A stretch of DNA of 64,000 bases from Gemmatimonadota bacterium (GTDB lineage: Bacteria; Latescibacterota; UBA2968; UBA8231), in NCBI GenBank assembly GCA_009841115.1, contig VXML01000002.1, positions 1-64,000 on the forward strand, written 5' to 3'. Of this stretch, positions 9,000 to 21,508 are shown piece after piece (the stretch's first letter is position 1; each line of letters begins with the position of its first letter). The notes under the pieces were generated by a model that was not told the origin of the DNA, ran no database searches, and saw only the letters and a list, made by a program, of their open reading frames with translations. The translations under genes and the position numbers were made by a program.

Positions 9000-10661
9000 T
9001 TAAAAGGCGGTTGTGTAGCGGGAGAGGGCGTCTTGGCTGATGTGCACCTCACCCGCGTACGCTTGGCGTAGCGAGTCGAGGAGCGCGTCGAAGAGCACCC
9101 CTTCGCGACGCTTGCGGATATTGACTCGAATGGGCCGCTGCACCTGCTTAAAAGGCAGCAACGCCATCTCATAAGGCTGGTCGAGGAGAAACACGCTGTA
9201 TTTCTCCTGGATCTCCATCGGACCTTGTAGAACTCCGACGTCTTTGGAATTGCTGTCGCCAAAGAAAGTGCGGTACGGCGACTGATAGAGCGACTCGATA
9301 GTAACCCGGCCACTATCGGCAAAAGTGTGCCCCCCCACCGGCTTCATGCTGGGCCGTACAGAGTGGCGCTGAGCCAATTCTGCCAGCCGCTCCCCGGCAC
9401 GCGCTCGTGCGAGAATTTCTTCGGCCTCGGCGCGCGTATCGACCAACACCTCGGTCATTTCGATGACGCCGGGCAGAGAGCGATAGGTCTCCAAGTGTTG
9501 CTCGTAGTAATCCCGAACCTCTGCTTCCGTTACTGAAACCTTCCCTGCCACTACGTCTAAGCGCAATTGCGACACGAGTAGCGACTGCTTCTGGCCCTCG
9601 GCCCACGCTACCATAGCGGGCCGTTGGTGTCGTCCCTGCATACGGGCTTCGAGCGCCAACAGGGAATCCGGCAGAATCCATCGCTCAATAGCCAAAACCG
9701 CGGCTGCACTGTCGGGCGGCAGCGCCCCCTTCTTAAGCGAGCGAAGCCTCCGCACAGCATCGCTGACACCTATCTTCCCCCCTTCATATTCAATCAGCAG
9801 TGCATGGGGCTGGTCCAGCGCACGCCCCTGCAACGCGGCGAGTACGGCGTGAATGCGGTCGCGGTGATAGCGCAAACCGCGCGCCTCCTTGAGCGAGTCA
9901 ATTACCACTCGTCGCCGCTGGGCCCACTTGCGTTGGCCAACCTGTTCGGCGATGTCAGCGCGCAATTTCTCAAAGGGGATGCGTCGTTTTTTGAGGACCT
10001 TGACGACCTCGTATCCGTCAATCGTGCGAATCGGTTTGCTAACTTGGCCTTCCTCTAAGTGAAAGGTGCCATCGCGCAGACTGGGCACAGCACCAGTTTG
10101 GTCGAAAAACGCACCAAGATTGCCTCCTTTGTCAGCATCGTCAGCGAGAGAATGCTGGCGCGCCAATTCGGAGAAGTTGGCCCCGGCTTCCAATTGGCCA
10201 ATGATGGCCCAAGCGTCTTCTTCGGTAGCAGAGAGAATGTGCGCTGGCCAGATTTCCCAACCAAGCAAATGCTCCTCGTACGCGGCGCGCAGTTCCTCCT
10301 CGGTCACCTTGAGCCGGACGTCGATCCACTCGCGCGATAGTTCCTCGGCCAAGCGCTTGTTGACCATGTCGGACAGCGTATGGGAAAGTCCAGACAACTG
10401 GTCCAATCCCCGCTTGTAGGCCTCGCGCAGCATGAGTTCCTTGTCGACTAGGGTCTGTAGGTTTTCGCCGCGGGCGGCTACTCCTTCTTTTTTTGAGCGC
10501 AGATAGTCGGGCAGTGTTTGTTCGTAGCGGTGGAGGTCCAAGGCCGTGATCACCTCACCACCCACCGTGGCTAAGACCGTCTCCGCAGTGGCCGGTTCGT
10601 TCTCTGACGTGCAACCTGCAACAGCTAAGAAAATGTTGCAGACAAAAAATCGCCAAGACAT
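9000..10661 (-). CDS. SurA/PrsA-like peptidyl-prolyl cis-trans isomerase lipoprotein with two parvulin domains
   Basis: The 553-residue protein has lipobox AVAGC (Cys17) and a SurA N-terminal-like helical segment (VGGEVITALDLHRYEQTLPD, about 33-52). The first parvulin-type domain spans about 135-230 (AHIL, then FSELARQHS, GGNLGAFF and GYEVVKVL). A second, less canonical one is at about 395-490 (EMTEVLVDT, then LAELAQRHS and GGHTF). Such lipoproteins fold and escort secreted and outer-membrane proteins in the periplasm. The position just downstream of a barrel gene and large surface proteins fits a dedicated chaperone. The ATG follows a weak GGGTG site. Confidence 0.85.
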   Translation of the reverse strand: MSWRFFVCNIFLAVAGCTSENEPATAETVLATVGGEVITALDLHRYEQTLPDYLRSKKEGVAARGENLQTLVDKELMLREAYKRGLDQLSGLSHTLSDMVNKRLAEELSREWIDVRLKVTEEELRAAYEEHLLGWEIWPAHILSATEEDAWAIIGQLEAGANFSELARQHSLADDADKGGNLGAFFDQTGAVPSLRDGTFHLEEGQVSKPIRTIDGYEVVKVLKKRRIPFEKLRADIAEQVGQRKWAQRRRVVIDSLKEARGLRYHRDRIHAVLAALQGRALDQPHALLIEYEGGKIGVSDAVRRLRSLKKGALPPDSAAAVLAIERWILPDSLLALEARMQGRHQRPAMVAWAEGQKQSLLVSQLRLDVVAGKVSVTEAEVRDYYEQHLETYRSLPGVIEMTEVLVDTRAEAEEILARARAGERLAELAQRHSVRPSMKPVGGHTFADSGRVTIESLYQSPYRTFFGDSNSKDVGVLQGPMEIQEKYSVFLLDQPYEMALLPFKQVQRPIRVNIRKRREGVLFDALLDSLRQAYAGEVHISQDALSRYTTAF

Positions 10662-14311: not shown

Positions 14312-17300
14312 TCAATAAGCCACGTGCACAAGGCGCGTCAATTTGTTGGCTTGCTCATCGGCTTCCACCTTGATCTGACAGAGATAGATCCCCGGCGGCA
14401 CAATCTGACCACCCATATCCCGCCCGTCCCACACAAACGCCTGCGTCCCTACCTTGCCACCAACCGCTGAACTCTGCCCTTGACCTACCAAGCGCCCGCC
14501 CAAATCGTAAAATGCAACGTCTAACGGACGCTCCTCCTGTACCTTCAACAAAACAAAATGCACCAAGAGTTCGTCGTTGATCCCATCGCCGTTGGGCGTA
14601 AAAACCGGTGATAGCACTACGTCTTGGATCAAAGACCCCGGCAGCGCCATCAAGCTGACCTGCGCCGTCGAAGAATCTACCAACTCGGTCGCATCCTTAT
14701 CGGCGGTATCTACCCGTTGAAATACGCCCTCCTCCGAGTCTGAAGACCGCACAAACGAAGTGAATTCAATGCCCTCGCGGAAGCTCTGAGACTCAAATTG
14801 CACCTCAATGAGGGTATGTTGGCCAGCCGACAGATCGGTATTAAGCGAAAAGGGGAACCGCACCCAGATCGAATCCGCCCCGGTCGCCATGCGTTCCAAT
14901 ATCTCGCCATCTGCATCGCGCAAGACTCCGTCGTCGCCGAGGACAAAGGCGCGATCAAACTCCGTGGTCGTCGCCGAGGTCCGCGTTTCCTCTGGGTTGA
15001 GCAGTGAAGGCGTCTGGGCGATGGCGACTTGCCCCAAGCGCACCCCCATCAAGCGCGCATCGCGCGGCGCGACGACCAGCACCTCGTTAAAGCCGTCGCG
15101 CACGGTCGCATCGGTCGGGTCGGGTGCGGCAGCGCGGATGAAATAAGCAAATTCCTGCGGCGCGAGCGGGTCGATATTGCGCGGCGGCGTGTAGTCCGAG
15201 GCCTGCACACCCAAATCGGTCGGAACGCGTGCTGTTCCCTCGTCGGTGAGGATCGCCAACTCGCCAGCCAGTTCCAGCGATAGCGGTGGTGCCAACTCAA
15301 TGCGCAAACTACGGATGCGCGCCGTCTTGGAGGGATCCTCGGAGGAAATATTAACTCGTACCTGAACGAACTTGCGCGGGTTAGGTGAGGTGATCGTCGC
15401 CTCGTTGACGCCATTGGTGGGCAGATAGCTCTCGCTCCATTCGCTCCAGCCGACAAACGCCAGTTCGCCGTCTTTGGCAAAGCTGGAGCGCGGTGCCCGG
15501 CGCAGCTTCCTGCCGTCCTCGTCCACCTTACCGTCGCCATCGTTGTCAATCAGGTCAATCGGATCCTCATCGGTGACCCCGTCGCCATCGTCGTCCGTGC
15601 GCGAGGCGTGTTTCTGGCTAGCGGGTAAGGTTTGCCAGATCTCCCAAGCCGTCCACTCCAAGGCGATCTCGTCGTAGACCTCTTTCGTCACTTCCTCGCG
15701 CTCTTCGTTGCCAGCAACAGTAACGACCTGATAGTACGTGAAGTTGGTGTCGGTCTGATCGGAGGTGCGGGTCTGTACCTGTAAGCGAACATCCGGATGG
15801 AGATCCAACGGCTCGATACGCTCGCTAGCCTGACCGGTGAGCGGATCGGTCTCGCGGACGATGACATCGCCTTCCCAAGCAATGCGCGGCAGGGTCTTGC
15901 GGATGAAGTTGCCGCGCGAATCCGTCAGCGTGATCGGCGGCGAGTACGCCCACACGCTCACCGGATACCCCTCGCCGTAAAGCTGGATCTCAGCTAAAGT
16001 CGCCAGTGCACCATAGCGACCGGATTGATTCCCGGTGACGTCGATGTCGCGGATTTGCAAAAAGCGTATCTTGCGATAGGGAAAAGTCTCGCGGAAAATG
16101 CGCACTACCGGACCGTGGTTATCGACGTGCTCCTCGCTGATGATGTTATCCCACTTGAGCGATTCTTCGAGCTGAGGAAAATCCTCGCGGTCTTCCATGC
16201 TCACGGGTTTGAGCAGCGTGCCGTCGGAAACCAAGATATCCGGCCCCAAGAAGGCACCTTGGTGGCTCTGGTTGATGCGCTTGTTGACTACTGAGACATT
16301 ATCGACCCAAAACACAGCCCCTAAGTCGTACCAAGCCGTGCCCTTGAGGTACACGGGCGACCACGTATTGGCCACCCACTCCGAGTCGTATAGCCCATCC
16401 GTGGACAAATTGGGCGCACCTAAGCCGCCGTTTTCAAACGAGGCACCGCCGCGCTTTTCGGGTTGTAGCGCGTAGTTGTCGCCCTTAGCCCAGACCTGAA
16501 CCTCGGCAATCCGGGGAACCTCCTTGCTATAATAGAGGATCGGACCGCGTTTCTCCTCGGGTAGGGCTTGATACTTTTCTGCGGCCGTCAGATTGTCGTC
16601 GTTTTGGAGTTCCACGAGTAGGCCACCGGCTGTCTGGCGCTGATAGATGATCGCACCGCGCTGTTCTTGGGGCAATGCTTCATAGGCGAGGCGTGCCTCT
16701 TCGCCCGTGCCCAAAAAGGCGTCGCGCCAGAGGTCTGAATCCGTAATTTTAATGCGGACGTAATGGATGAAAGCGCCATTAATATCGGGCCGCCCATCCA
16801 AGTCCCAGTCGGCTCGATCCAGCGGCAAGAGCGGGAAGGTCATCTGTACGTAGCGCCCCTCAGTCCCAGGCATAGGAACCAGCGTCACTTCACCGGTCTC
16901 ACCTCCTCCCCCACCTTCACAGCGGGTTTCGCCGGCGTAGCCCGCGCTTTCATCGCGTACACACTGGGCCAATTTACCGGCGACGAAGCCGGTAGAGACT
17001 TGACCTATGACGGAAAACTTGAGGTTGTTACCCAGGGGAAATGGGAAGCGCTCGCCCATCGAGGCAAAAAGCACAAAGGCCTTAACCGGCTCGCCGAGGA
17101 ACTCGTCCTCGAACTGGCCAGCGGGAAAGATGATCGTTAGGCTATCGGCGAAGACCAGCCGCCCCAGATCGACTTCAATTTCCCAGTCGCGCAGACCGTC
17201 GAGATGGAAATCTCCAGGGCGAGTCAGGCGGCTCCCAAAATCGGCTGGCGTGTCCGGTTCCCAGAAGGTGCTCAAATCGCCATCGATGATATTATTGGCC

Positions 17301-17647
17301 AAGGCGTCATTGGATTTGGCCGTCGCCCCCCCAGAGACGAGATCGCCGTTAGCGCGGACCAAATCAGGATAGGTGAAATCGACAGCCGTCGGAGCCACGT
17401 TGATATTGCGGCGAAAGAAAGTCGGCCGCAGCCCATCGGCATCAACTCGGAAAATGTCCGCATCGCGGATTGGCACATTCAATTGGGAGACCAAGTCATT
17501 CTGATAAATCCAGTTTTCCCAGTGCGAAGCCCGATCCACGCGGATCGAGCTGCCAAAAAGCCGATAGGCATTAGTTTGAGCCAGACAGAAACTAGGCAGA
17601 AATAGTACTGCGAAGAGAGCCATCTTCCGCTTTAGCAGCCGTTTCAT
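14312..17647 (-). CDS. Large secreted surface protein: discoidin-like domains and FlgD/CHU_C-like C-terminus
   Basis: The 1111-residue protein has a signal peptide (cleavage near CLAQTNA, about residue 24). F5/8 type C-like (discoidin) segments are visible around residues 95-190 (IIDGDLSTFWEP, WEIEVDLG) and 395-560 (STDGLYDSEWV, WYDLGAVFWVDNVSVVNKR). Acidic calcium-type repeats occur at about 682-710 (DDDGDGVTDEDP, DNDGDGKVDEDG). The C-terminus from about 1005 has FTPNGDGIND and later WDGRD and PPGIYLCQIKV, the combination found in CHU_C/FlgD Ig-like sorting domains, ending VHVAY. A short motif LPxxxRG appears twice near 320 and 360. It is probably exported to the cell surface, where discoidin folds bind glycans. 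The ATG has AAGGAAA upstream. Confidence 0.75.
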   Translation of the reverse strand: MKRLLKRKMALFAVLFLPSFCLAQTNAYRLFGSSIRVDRASHWENWIYQNDLVSQLNVPIRDADIFRVDADGLRPTFFRRNINVAPTAVDFTYPDLVRANGDLVSGGATAKSNDALANNIIDGDLSTFWEPDTPADFGSRLTRPGDFHLDGLRDWEIEVDLGRLVFADSLTIIFPAGQFEDEFLGEPVKAFVLFASMGERFPFPLGNNLKFSVIGQVSTGFVAGKLAQCVRDESAGYAGETRCEGGGGGETGEVTLVPMPGTEGRYVQMTFPLLPLDRADWDLDGRPDINGAFIHYVRIKITDSDLWRDAFLGTGEEARLAYEALPQEQRGAIIYQRQTAGGLLVELQNDDNLTAAEKYQALPEEKRGPILYYSKEVPRIAEVQVWAKGDNYALQPEKRGGASFENGGLGAPNLSTDGLYDSEWVANTWSPVYLKGTAWYDLGAVFWVDNVSVVNKRINQSHQGAFLGPDILVSDGTLLKPVSMEDREDFPQLEESLKWDNIISEEHVDNHGPVVRIFRETFPYRKIRFLQIRDIDVTGNQSGRYGALATLAEIQLYGEGYPVSVWAYSPPITLTDSRGNFIRKTLPRIAWEGDVIVRETDPLTGQASERIEPLDLHPDVRLQVQTRTSDQTDTNFTYYQVVTVAGNEEREEVTKEVYDEIALEWTAWEIWQTLPASQKHASRTDDDGDGVTDEDPIDLIDNDGDGKVDEDGRKLRRAPRSSFAKDGELAFVGWSEWSESYLPTNGVNEATITSPNPRKFVQVRVNISSEDPSKTARIRSLRIELAPPLSLELAGELAILTDEGTARVPTDLGVQASDYTPPRNIDPLAPQEFAYFIRAAAPDPTDATVRDGFNEVLVVAPRDARLMGVRLGQVAIAQTPSLLNPEETRTSATTTEFDRAFVLGDDGVLRDADGEILERMATGADSIWVRFPFSLNTDLSAGQHTLIEVQFESQSFREGIEFTSFVRSSDSEEGVFQRVDTADKDATELVDSSTAQVSLMALPGSLIQDVVLSPVFTPNGDGINDELLVHFVLLKVQEERPLDVAFYDLGGRLVGQGQSSAVGGKVGTQAFVWDGRDMGGQIVPPGIYLCQIKVEADEQANKLTRLVHVAY

Positions 17648-17683
17648 AGCATTTCCTTTCTTTCCGCGCTTTATAGCCTAAAG

Positions 17684-20164
17684 CTAATACGCTACGGAAA
17701 TGATGCGCGTCTGGGCCTCACCTGCATGATCAGCGTCGGTCGAAATGCGCAATAGGTATAGCCCCGGAGGCACGACCTGTCCAGCATCGTCGCGGCCATC
17801 CCACTGCTGCGAATATCCCCCCGACGATAGCTGGCGCTCAATGAGACGCCTGCGCCGACCGTTCAAATCGAATATCTCCAGATATACTGGCTTCGGCGTT
17901 AGCAATCGCTGGACGTCAAAAGTCACGACTACTTCGTCGTTGACGTCGTCGCCATTGGGCGTAAAAGGATTGGGCACGACCTTGAAATTGGTCACTAGGT
18001 TCTCGCTCTGCGCTGAAATATCGGCGATCACCGCTAGAGAATTGCGATCTGAGAGCTGGTCCGTCGCTGCGAAATCCACTACGTCATTGTCCTCCACCCG
18101 CTGTGGCAAGAAAATGGCCAGCGTATCGAGCGCACTCTCATTACCCCCAAGCGCCAAAATGCCGCTACTGGTAAAGCGTCGCTCTGTTTCTGCACCTAAA
18201 GTGTCTAAGAATACATTGGCAGCGAAGTTGGTGCGGAAATCGATGACCCGGCCCTGAAAGCGGACCTTTACCAATGCGTTGCGGACTTGGTCTTCCTCAG
18301 CTGGGCCTATGGTTGGAAAACCAACGACGAACTGATCATCGGCAACGTACAATTCTCGAAACTGTCCCTCGCCTATCTCGCCTCCGTCATCAACTCGTTC
18401 CAAGTTCAGGAACTCTCCGTCGCCTAGATCCACTTCCACCCCCTCAATGGCTTCCGCACGAGCCGGCGTAAAAACCTGCAAGCGGTTGAACCCATTGTTC
18501 TCAGCCCCTAGTCCAGCGTTGAGGACCAGCACAAAGGAGGTATCGCGGCCAGCAATCACATCCACGGCCGGAGCAATCTCGCCGAAGACCTGATCCGTGA
18601 TCTGTGGAGCAGAGTATTCAAAACGCAAATTGCTAATAATCGTAGCCGCCGCAGGATCTTCGCTCAGAAACTCAACCTCAATCTGAATGAAGGGCCGACC
18701 ACTCGGCGCATTGATCAACTGGCCATTGTTGGCCAACTGAACACCACTCCAGAACTCGAGATCGGGCTCAACATGGCGCCGCTCATTGCCCGGCAGGGAC
18801 TTGTACTCGGCGCGAGTCAGGCGGACTCGCGCTCGGTCTTCAGGCAAAGCAGCACTGAAGATCTCACGGGCTTCTAGATTGAAAGCCTCATCGTTTAGGT
18901 CCACTTCCTGGCCGAAGGTCTTGGAACCAAGCCGTTGGTCGGTGATACTCGCCCCTTCCTCTTTCCACTCCACCGAACGCTCGAATTTGTTGACGCGAAA
19001 AAGCACATCTGGCTCGGGATTGACGCCAGTCTGTACGCGCACGATAGCGCGCGACCCGTTGGGATCGCCAATTTTTCGCTCGTCCCAGAAAATCCTCCCC
19101 AAGGTCGCTGGGGGCAGCGGTAGTGCATTGGAAGTATAAACCGCTTCAGGCACAAAGCCGTCGGCTAAAAACTCCATTTCAGCTAAATCGTAATCCAGCG
19201 GAGTCTGAAAATCAAAGCGAGCATAGCGCATGTAAGCCTGCGGCTCAAAGGCCACAGCAATGGTGTCTTCCAGATTGACTGGTGCGCTCGCCTCGGGAAC
19301 GAAGGTCGGAAAAGTCGAGGCTATCTTAGTAAACCTAGGGAACGCCAACTGCCCAACACTCGGATCGTCGAGACTAAGACCGGCGATCACTTTCTCAGTC
19401 CCAGGCAGGCCCCTATAAAAGGTATAAGCGGAAACGCGCGAAGGCTCTTCAAGACTGGGATAGAGGCGGAACAAGCGGATTGGAAAGTAGCGTCCTAAGT
19501 CGATATAGAGAATCCATTGCTGTTTGACGTCCTGCCCAACTCGGTCAATGCGCTCAAAATGGGTCAATGGATCGCCATCGAAAACGTACCATAGGCCCTC
19601 TTGGAGTCGCTGGTCAGTCAAAGCTCTTTCAAAAATACCGAGAGGCGTGAGGTTTAGTCCCTTATTGTACTTGTCGCCGCTGGGAGGGCGGGGAAAGGAT
19701 TCGGCCACGTTGATCATGGCCTCAATCTCGGTAATGCCAGCCCGACGCAATAACTGGACGGCCTCTAAGCTACGCGGAAAGGAATTCCAACGAGGAACCA
19801 AGACCGTGCCCGCCTTTACGGTCGTACCATCTTCGAGTTCGATATCAGTCGATGCTACTACATCAGCTCTGGTTACATTAAGCGAGAAGGCGAAGAGACT
19901 GGAATCGGTCGCTGCATCCACTTCGGCGGCGGTTAACGCGAGAGGAACTTCGGGAACGGGAACTACACGCGATGGGGTAATAGGCCCAATGCCATTTTCA
20001 TAGCTTTCAAGGTCTATTACTTCAATGAAGCGATTTTCTGAAAGCGGCCCCTGCTTGGCATCAATCCAAGTTGTATTGCCCGGAATAGCGAACAGCCGCA
20101 ACTCCGCAGCAGCATTTACCCAACCGCCCAAAACCAACGCGGCGACACAAATCCCAATTCTCAT
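17684..20164 (-). CDS. Large secreted surface protein with FlgD/CHU_C-like C-terminus (paralogue of the 14312-17647 protein)
   Basis: The 826-residue protein has a signal peptide (cut near NAAAE, about residue 20). Its middle shares style and motifs with the downstream 1111-residue neighbour: a discoidin-like region with YIDLGRYFPIRLFRLYPS (about 220-240), the motif AEYKSLPGNERR (about 446-460), and sentences of the type FEYSAPQITDQVFGEIAP. The C-terminal domain from about 725 has PNPFTPNGDDVNDEVVVTF, then WDGRDDAGQVVPPGLYLLRI, and ends ISVAY. Export and surface display are likely by analogy with CHU_C/FlgD-terminated proteins. The gene is followed closely by the 1111-residue protein, the barrel and the lipoprotein, all on one strand. 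Confidence 0.75.
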   Translation of the reverse strand: MRIGICVAALVLGGWVNAAAELRLFAIPGNTTWIDAKQGPLSENRFIEVIDLESYENGIGPITPSRVVPVPEVPLALTAAEVDAATDSSLFAFSLNVTRADVVASTDIELEDGTTVKAGTVLVPRWNSFPRSLEAVQLLRRAGITEIEAMINVAESFPRPPSGDKYNKGLNLTPLGIFERALTDQRLQEGLWYVFDGDPLTHFERIDRVGQDVKQQWILYIDLGRYFPIRLFRLYPSLEEPSRVSAYTFYRGLPGTEKVIAGLSLDDPSVGQLAFPRFTKIASTFPTFVPEASAPVNLEDTIAVAFEPQAYMRYARFDFQTPLDYDLAEMEFLADGFVPEAVYTSNALPLPPATLGRIFWDERKIGDPNGSRAIVRVQTGVNPEPDVLFRVNKFERSVEWKEEGASITDQRLGSKTFGQEVDLNDEAFNLEAREIFSAALPEDRARVRLTRAEYKSLPGNERRHVEPDLEFWSGVQLANNGQLINAPSGRPFIQIEVEFLSEDPAAATIISNLRFEYSAPQITDQVFGEIAPAVDVIAGRDTSFVLVLNAGLGAENNGFNRLQVFTPARAEAIEGVEVDLGDGEFLNLERVDDGGEIGEGQFRELYVADDQFVVGFPTIGPAEEDQVRNALVKVRFQGRVIDFRTNFAANVFLDTLGAETERRFTSSGILALGGNESALDTLAIFLPQRVEDNDVVDFAATDQLSDRNSLAVIADISAQSENLVTNFKVVPNPFTPNGDDVNDEVVVTFDVQRLLTPKPVYLEIFDLNGRRRRLIERQLSSGGYSQQWDGRDDAGQVVPPGLYLLRISTDADHAGEAQTRIISVAY

Positions 20165-20369: not shown

Positions 20370-21272
20370 TTACTTAAGCGAGGCCTTGATGCGCCCCCAA
20401 GAGTCTTCTTCGACCGCCGTGCCATCGCCACCGGCACCGACCAAGCGACCATCGACGAAGCGCTCGGCAAAGCGCCAAGTCGCAGCCTGACCAGACAAGG
20501 TGTGAAAAGCGCGGTAATCGCTCGGACCTTCATCCATGTCCTGAGCCGAAATCTGGAAACCAATGATCTTGCCATCGAACAAGGGCGAAGCTACGCTGTC
20601 GTCTGGGCTGTTCCAGATTAGGTCGTCGAAAGGCGTGACGAAGAACTCAATGATTGTGGTCGTCGGCCCGTCGCCGGTCGAACCGCCGCCGCCATCAGCG
20701 TAGGGCAGCGCGTTGACCCACTCGGTGCCTTTGCCCAGATAGCCGACGTGGCGGCCGTCAGGAGTATCACCGATAGCCACGTACTGCTGAGCCGTGCGGT
20801 TGTTATTCAGGTCCTTCTCTTCGTCGGTCCAGTTCTCATCGGCCGAACCAGTGTAATCGCCACCAGTGTGGTCGCCATCAAGCATGAACTCAATGGCATC
20901 TTGTCTCCACAAGCTACCCAAGTCACCGCCAGCGTACTCATTGATGTAGATGTTGTCGATGCGCTCCATGCCCATCCAGATGGTACCGGCATTGCCATTC
21001 CAAGCCAGCCAAATGCGATAGTCTAGGTCCGCCGGATCGTACTGGGCACCGTCGCCCACAGTCGGGTCCTGAAAGAAATCAGTGGTGACCAACTGTGCAT
21101 CACCAACTACATCTTCCCAGTCGGCTATGCTGGCGTCGCGCAGATCGATATCGGCCAGATCAGCTTCGGGGAGCTCAAAGAGCAGGTAAACCTGTTCGCC
21201 AATATGCGCACTGGCACCGCTCGTCAGGCCTAAAATCAGGCCCATAGCCAAAAGGCCATATAGACGTTTCAT
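20370..21272 (-). CDS. Secreted CBM9/DOMON-like domain protein
   Basis: ATG at 21272 (GGAAGGAG nine bases upstream) gives 300 residues with signal peptide MKRLYGLLAMGLILGLTSGA, cut near SAHIG. The body has the pattern of family 9 carbohydrate-binding / DOMON-like beta-sandwiches: DYRIWLAWNGNAGTIWMGMER followed by WRQDAIEFMLDGDHTGGDY and later IIGFQISAQDMDEG. It is likely a periplasmic or surface sugar- or ligand-binding protein. It is preceded by a promoter and a 200-base structured leader, and followed by a hairpin, so it may form its own transcript. The family call rests on pattern only. Confidence 0.6.
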   Translation of the reverse strand: MKRLYGLLAMGLILGLTSGASAHIGEQVYLLFELPEADLADIDLRDASIADWEDVVGDAQLVTTDFFQDPTVGDGAQYDPADLDYRIWLAWNGNAGTIWMGMERIDNIYINEYAGGDLGSLWRQDAIEFMLDGDHTGGDYTGSADENWTDEEKDLNNNRTAQQYVAIGDTPDGRHVGYLGKGTEWVNALPYADGGGGSTGDGPTTTIIEFFVTPFDDLIWNSPDDSVASPLFDGKIIGFQISAQDMDEGPSDYRAFHTLSGQAATWRFAERFVDGRLVGAGGDGTAVEEDSWGRIKASLK

Positions 21273-21473
21273 AAGCTGCAACTCCTTCCCTCTTTCGGGA
21301 GTGTGGTGTTTTGGGTAGAGACCTTTTCGGCTCGATCTCCATCGTAGCCACGGACTATAGCTTGTTGCCTCCGTAGGTCTGCTTTCCCCGCGTAGAAAAT
21401 TATGCCCACTAACAATCGACATCCGATCTGATCTTTCCTGACCAATCGGAAGCCGCTGTAGAGGGCTTTTAAT
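21273..21473 (-). ncRNA. Structured 5' leader of the CBM9-like gene (possible cis-regulatory RNA)
   Basis: The leader between the predicted start site and the ATG contains several helices. TCCGAT/ATCGGA (21422-21427/21445-21450) is extended inwards by a second 5-bp stem. AAGCC/GGCTT lies at 21450-21454/21464-21468. A three-way junction has outer stem AGACC/GGTCT (21319-21323/21376-21380), hairpin GGCTCGAT/ATCGtAGCC (21329-21336/21341-21349, one bulge) and hairpin ACGGA/TCCGT (21350-21354/21370-21374). Next to the gene, ACTCC/GGAGT (21281-21285/21298-21302) would pair the Shine-Dalgarno GGAG. The layout resembles an aptamer plus expression platform. I could not match it to a known riboswitch class; function is inferred. 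Confidence 0.4.
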
Positions 21474-21479
21474 CGGTGC

Positions 21480-21508
21480 AATATAGGGAATTTTTCTCTA
21501 TGCTGCAA
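21480..21508 (-). promoter_or_regulatory. Sigma-70-type promoter of the CBM9-like gene
   Basis: On the minus strand, TTGCAG (21508-21503), a 17-base spacer and TATATT (21485-21480) match the -35/-10 pattern well. The predicted start near 21473 leaves a leader of about 200 bases before the ATG at 21272. The 306-base gap 21273-21578 therefore holds this promoter, the leader and the 3' hairpin of the next gene. Confidence 0.6.

Follow-up and report, generated by a model that had tools for sequence, protein, structure and literature searches.

A lineage-specific structured leader upstream of a secreted-protein gene in Latescibacterota

The window, the whole 64,000-nt stretch of DNA analysed here, belongs to a metagenome-assembled genome of 6.16 Mb whose relatives are labelled Latescibacterota and also Handelsmanbacteria or Gemmatimonadota. 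The locus lies on the minus strand and comprises, in order, a promoter (21508–21480), a leader of about 200 bases (about 21473 to 21273), a gene (20370–21272) and an intrinsic terminator (20343–20305). The gene encodes a 300-aa secreted protein with a signal-like N-terminal sequence, which is probably abundant at the surface. It is part of a large paralogous family with 13 matches within its own genome, and orthologs or paralogs were present in 24 of the 25 genomes of the taxonomic family. Searches of the protein against Pfam, NCBIfam and PDB returned no match; consequently, the label "CBM9-like", given to it in an earlier note on this DNA, remains unverified. The terminator scan placed the terminator directly 3′ of the gene, with an 18-bp stem, a loop of 3 and a T-containing tail. 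With its own promoter upstream and this strong terminator directly downstream, the gene constitutes a monocistronic unit. Two large secreted proteins carrying FlgD/CHU_C type IX secretion-like C-terminal domains adjoin the gene (window positions 14312–20164), and about ten secreted-protein paralogs stand in tandem on a single contig elsewhere (G022:C18:63337-72323).

The promoter consists of TTGCAG (21508–21503), a 17-nt spacer and TATATT (21485–21480). It had been described as a good promoter; both hexamers and their spacing are present as described, but the consensus quality is poorer than that wording implies, with 3/6 consensus matches in the −35 element and no report of the promoter in the standard scan output. 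The call is supported by conservation across homologs rather than by consensus match: all 8 same-genus homologs share TATATT and the 17-nt spacing without change, and the −35 element reads TTGC(A/T)G. The distance from promoter to gene is about 210 nt and is greater only in two species with hairpin insertions. In orthologs further removed, promoters of the TTGACA type occupy a comparable position. Judged from the promoter alone, the transcript would start near 21473.

The minus-strand leader RNA had a predicted folding energy of −73.2 kcal/mol compared with −57.9 ± 4.1 kcal/mol for dinucleotide shuffles (z = −3.77, 0/200). On the sense strand, the RNAalifold consensus energy of the eight available leaders likewise surpassed every one of 200 column shuffles (z = −3.80). 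A plus-strand (antisense) RNA was considered and rejected on account of its weaker fold, both for the single sequence (z = −1.84) and for the consensus (z = −2.54). When species were folded individually, whole-leader z-scores ranged from −2.1 to −4.4 in six of the eight, while the complete leaders of the two most diverged species folded no better than shuffles (z = −1.0 and −0.6). The upstream regions of 41 other long open frames in the window served as a control and gave a mean z of −0.44 (sd 1.30); two of the 41 match the leader in stability, one of them overlapping the terminator. An unusually stable fold was also observed in the 200 nt upstream of window positions 9000–10661 on the minus strand (z = −3.41, 0/100 shuffles). 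Rfam searches with cmscan yielded no match at gathering thresholds for the whole window, nor at E ≤ 10 for the region. Membership of a known RNA class is thereby ruled out, as the earlier note had held, and a by-eye likeness to c-di-GMP-I is without support. The proposal of a structured cis-acting leader is borne out by the fold beyond shuffles, the homologs in the genus and the absence from Rfam. The leader is real and structured and lies outside Rfam: a familiar type of element in a new setting.

A DNA search of the 25 family genomes identified homologous leaders in 8 of the 11 species of the genus (the window and seven others), preceding the same gene each time; a DNA search of the window's own genome found no copy besides the orthologous locus. 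A covariance model of the multibranch element within the leader recovered the same eight loci only, one per genome, in 8 of 64 phylum genomes. One extra match with E = 0.36 (G043) precedes an unrelated fliM-like gene and was taken as chance. Because the 64-genome phylum search found no copy elsewhere, there is no regulon, and the leader belongs to one gene in one lineage. Across the family, too, a long leader separates a TTGACA-type promoter from the gene in most other orthologs, with a sequence unrelated to this one; the long leader is thus the constant feature and its sequence is not. MAFFT aligned the clade B leaders just loosely apart from the promoter and the Shine–Dalgarno (SD) site, and none of the clade B, g2, g4 or g7 leaders could be shown to be homologous to that of the window. 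A separate observation concerns two genus members. In G003 the protein is only ~75% identical to that of the window, compared with ~80% for the leader and 90% for the upstream gene; G011 shows the same low protein versus leader pattern, with the upstream gene cut off there. This suggests that in both genomes the coding part may have been diversified or replaced behind a retained leader.

According to the RNAalifold consensus of the eight leaders, the RNA is organized into a long 5′ hairpin, an unpaired U-/AU-rich linker, a multibranch element closed by GACCU/AGGUC and an SD-bearing tail. The 5′ hairpin (21404–21466, minus strand; GCCC...GGGC, ~21 pairs with internal bulges) starts ~7 nt past the inferred transcript start. 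Folded alone, it reached z-scores of −3.0 to −5.5 in 6/8 species and between about −1 and −1.7 in the two that carry insertions; its outer-pair probability was at least 0.7 in 7/8 species and 0.46 in G011. The two abutting hairpins formerly drawn at 21422–21468 are both absorbed into this one long hairpin in single-sequence and consensus folds alike. The U-rich linker AUAAUUUUCUACGCG (21389–21403, minus strand) follows, nearly invariant in the alignment and unpaired in the consensus.

The multibranch element (21313–21387, minus strand) was delineated by the consensus fold and pair counts. Its outer helix is formed by GGG/CCC and GACCU/AGGUC, its inner helices by ACGG/CYGU (with GGC/GCC and UAG/CUA as alternatives) and a GCUACGAU/AUCGAGC hairpin, and it contains a conserved loop, GGCAAYAAG. 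Folded alone, the element gave z-scores from −1.8 to −4.8 in 8/8 species, including −2.75 and −2.61 in the two most diverged. The three-way junction of the earlier note holds as regards its outer stem AGACC/GGTCT (21380–21376 with 21323–21319), which is conserved; its inner hairpins are only partly backed. The ACGG/CYGU helix is paired in 97% of alignment cells, and one of its pairs occurs as GC, GU and AU types. However, the earlier arrangement with ACGG/CYGU and the alifold arrangement with GGC/GCC and UAGY/GCUA fit the alignment nearly equally (93.8% and 96.0% of cells paired, respectively), and single-sequence folding favours other inner junction pairings in several species. The tail (21282–21302, minus strand) carries ACUCC (21302–21298), AGAGGG and the SD site AAGGAG (GGAG at 21285–21282), located 9 nt ahead of the ATG; alone, it folds no better than shuffles.

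Three pairs are changed on both sides in the alignment of the eight close sequences. Covariation was evaluated against a permutation null in which columns were shuffled among positions with the same reference base and the structure, taken from one sequence, was kept fixed. For the minimum-free-energy structure of the window, pair retention among the eight close sequences was 80.5% versus 78.0% expected (p = 0.12), with 6 double changes versus 4.1 expected (p = 0.25). Over four reference structures, retention p-values ranged from 0.01 to 0.27 (best p = 0.013) and double changes were non-significant in this same set of eight. Pair retention and the compensatory changes that the earlier note had looked to as a check stand just slightly above the permutation null, and with the little power that eight close sequences give, this speaks neither for nor against a conserved structure. 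The leader has diverged about as much as the fourfold-degenerate sites of the neighbouring gene, so there is no sign of strong sequence constraint on it.

These results bear on the possibility that the leader is transcribed and its structure non-regulatory: a chance-stable intergenic stretch, whose conservation would reflect short divergence together with the promoter and SD site. Such a reading agrees with the fourfold-like divergence, with pair retention inside the nulls and with the equal stability of some other upstream regions in the window. On the other hand, the fold exceeds shuffles in six species, both halves of the leader are significant separately, the multibranch element stays stable in the two most diverged species, and long leaders recur at orthologs throughout the family. 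We consider an incidental fold rather unlikely, while granting it some weight.

The earlier note had also described an SD-masking hairpin and, with it, the layout of a translational riboswitch. ACUCC/GGAGU complementarity is indeed found in 8/8 species, with one wobble change, and the RNAalifold consensus draws it as a possible pairing; the masking itself is not predicted. Partition-function folds of the leader extended by 30 nt into the coding sequence gave this helix a probability of 0.00–0.02 in every species and had the SD site pairing diffusely with other partners, while a UCCC/GGGA hairpin competes with ACUCC/GGAGU for overlapping bases. The terminator scan detected no intrinsic terminator inside the leader on its own strand.

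A translational riboswitch or protein-binding leader would use the multibranch element with its GGCAAYAAG loop to bind a ligand or protein, and a rearrangement of the tail, pairing ACUCC with the SD site or UCCC with GGGA, would close or open the SD site. Like known translational riboswitches, the leader has conserved loops in a multibranch element that precedes an SD site with a complementary ACUCC. The conserved unpaired loop and junction sequence, the stability of the element beyond shuffles in 8/8 species, the GC, GU and AU types at one ACGG/CYGU pair and the mutually exclusive tail pairings available in 8/8 species are all consistent with it. Unlike those systems, the leader shows no Rfam relative, no predicted SD masking (probability ≤0.02) and no significant covariation among the eight close sequences, and it serves a single gene per genome, being missing from 56 of the 64 phylum genomes, three of the genus among them. 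With SD masking unpredicted, covariation not above the nulls and no co-regulated gene set, the riboswitch reading is left unsupported. An SD switch can be imagined, but nothing favours such switching, and we regard a ligand- or protein-responsive leader as unlikely. Structured 5′ UTRs that stabilise or tune surface-protein mRNAs account for such an anatomy with no need of a ligand.

An upstream regulatory peptide of the attenuator type would begin at an AUG in the 3′ arm of the 5′ hairpin (AUGUCGAUU...), and in 5/8 leaders this AUG follows an AGG-containing stretch. The resulting frame, however, ranges in length between 5 codons and, where it stays open into the main gene, at least 51 codons, it is shifted or missing in three species, and variable columns are spread evenly over codon positions (7, 9 and 7 of 21). 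With frame and length unconserved and no codon-position bias, a leader-peptide attenuator was rejected as highly improbable.

We favour, at about an even chance, a constitutive role in stability and translation for the leader, which would be a lineage-specific structured 5′ UTR on the monocistronic mRNA of the secreted protein. The long hairpin a few bases past the transcript start would hide the 5′ end from 5′-end-dependent decay. The folded multibranch element and the U-rich linker would make the remainder of the leader compact and may offer the 30S subunit somewhere to land beside an ordinary strong SD site. The leader would thus act constitutively, setting mRNA lifetime and translation rate, with no ligand switch. 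Sensing of the 5′ end is known of the RNase E/G family, and a PF10150 (RNase E/G) hit was obtained in the window's own genome and in 11/11 genus genomes. Two RNase Y-like genes occur in most genus genomes, and RNase J (TIGR00649 above cut-off) was detected in 1 of the 25 family genomes and in none of the genus.

We counted in favour of a stability and translation leader the stable whole fold, with the 5′ hairpin and multibranch element each stable alone; the consensus energy past all column shuffles, the conserved promoter and its distance to the gene, steady in all but the two species with hairpin insertions; the monocistronic gene with its strong terminator, at one locus per genome and always the same gene; a genus that encodes RNase E/G and RNase Y and lacks RNase J; and the recurrence of long leaders at most other family orthologs. 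Counted against it were the non-significant pair-level selection with eight sequences, the lack of fold excess in the two most diverged species, the divergence close to that of fourfold sites and the 2 of 41 control upstream regions that are as stable.

Several described leaders offer parallels. In the slpA leader of Lactobacillus, a large stem-loop possibly protects the mRNA (PMC6482533), and work on 5′ stem-loop stabilisation of ompA and papA is among that cited in PMC3997798. As in ompA-type stabilisers and the slpA leader, a surface-protein mRNA here has a long untranslated leader with a stable hairpin, and RNase E/G is encoded in the host genome. The hairpin would lie close to the 5′ end, ~7 nt from a start placed by the promoter. 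In contrast to ompA and slpA, to which no sequence relation was shown, a second, multibranch element follows the hairpin. Long structured leaders also supply ribosome standby sites (PMC3936740); similarly, the structured leader described here has single-stranded stretches before its SD site and could load the 30S subunit, possibly through the linker. In the literature searched, we found no characterised RNA regulation in Latescibacterota. For this uncultured phylum, the leader provides a clean, testable case of a surface-protein gene with a structured 5′ UTR.

A different mode of stabilisation is known from cry3A of Bacillus thuringiensis, where an additional SD close to the 5′ end of the mRNA (STAB-SD) parks a 30S roadblock that blocks RNase J1 (PMC4113751). 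The case for a STAB-SD in the window leader comes from its relatives, since other orthologs and many paralogs carry GAAAGGAGG ~100 nt before the start. In the window leader itself the site is absent. The best pairing that this leader offers to the 16S tail reaches −9.5 kcal/mol, weaker than the real SD site (−12.8 kcal/mol) and the element of the relatives (−15.8 to −23.0 kcal/mol); the GGAGG core of this match is broken in 2/8 homologs and a third has a change just beside it. The genus also lacks RNase J, the enzyme that is held off in cry3A. With a weak 16S match, an unconserved core and no RNase J, a STAB-SD in the window leader was rejected, and we consider it very improbable.

In orthologs outside the window's subclade, most leaders carry GAAAGGAGG(TG) ~90–140 nt before the start codon. 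The GAAAGGAGG motif is the complement of the 16S rRNA 3′ end, as compared with the organism's own 16S end (L090). Among 66 non-redundant leaders of the protein family, AAAGGAGG was present between −160 and −50 in 17, at positions −70 to −141 and mostly −87 to −107, and in none of the 66 between −320 and −160. Dinucleotide shuffles of the 66 leaders gave an average of 0.20 expected occurrences and at most 1. In most cases inspected by eye, no suitable start codon follows the site.

The resemblance to cry3A thus lies in an SD-like GAAAGGAGG far upstream that directs no apparent reading frame; the differences are that the window leader is without the site and that RNase J is absent from 24 of the 25 family genomes. 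Since the classic STAB-SD explanation requires RNase J, which nearly all these genomes lack, the orphan SD poses a question of its own. A speculative scheme, which we think quite unlikely to hold as a whole, is that in secreted-protein mRNAs of Latescibacterota 30S subunits dock at GAAAGGAGG ~100 nt upstream, with no reading frame and no RNase J, and that in the window's subclade, at one gene, a compact structured RNA took over the same job, be it ribosome loading or parking or mRNA protection. The orphan SD of the relatives is perhaps more interesting than the window leader, and the sharper question is what role a 16S-complementary site 100 nt upstream plays in bacteria without RNase J.

Exact matches to GAAAGGAGGTG in a small phylum sample include several located 86–160 nt before signal-peptide proteins (L125, L128, L135, L136 and L138), together with ordinary SD cases at 16 nt. 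As GAAAGGAGGTG thus also lies upstream of signal-peptide proteins elsewhere in the phylum, the pattern may be phylum-wide and extend beyond this protein family. Orphan sites of the form (G)AAAGGAGG(T), ~70–141 nt ahead of the start codons of secreted-protein genes, were recorded at loci L038, L039, L040, L042, L043, L046, L047, L049, L085, L086, L087, L095, L096, L099, L103, L105, L111, L112, L162, L164, L165, L171, L174, L175, L177, L178 and L180.
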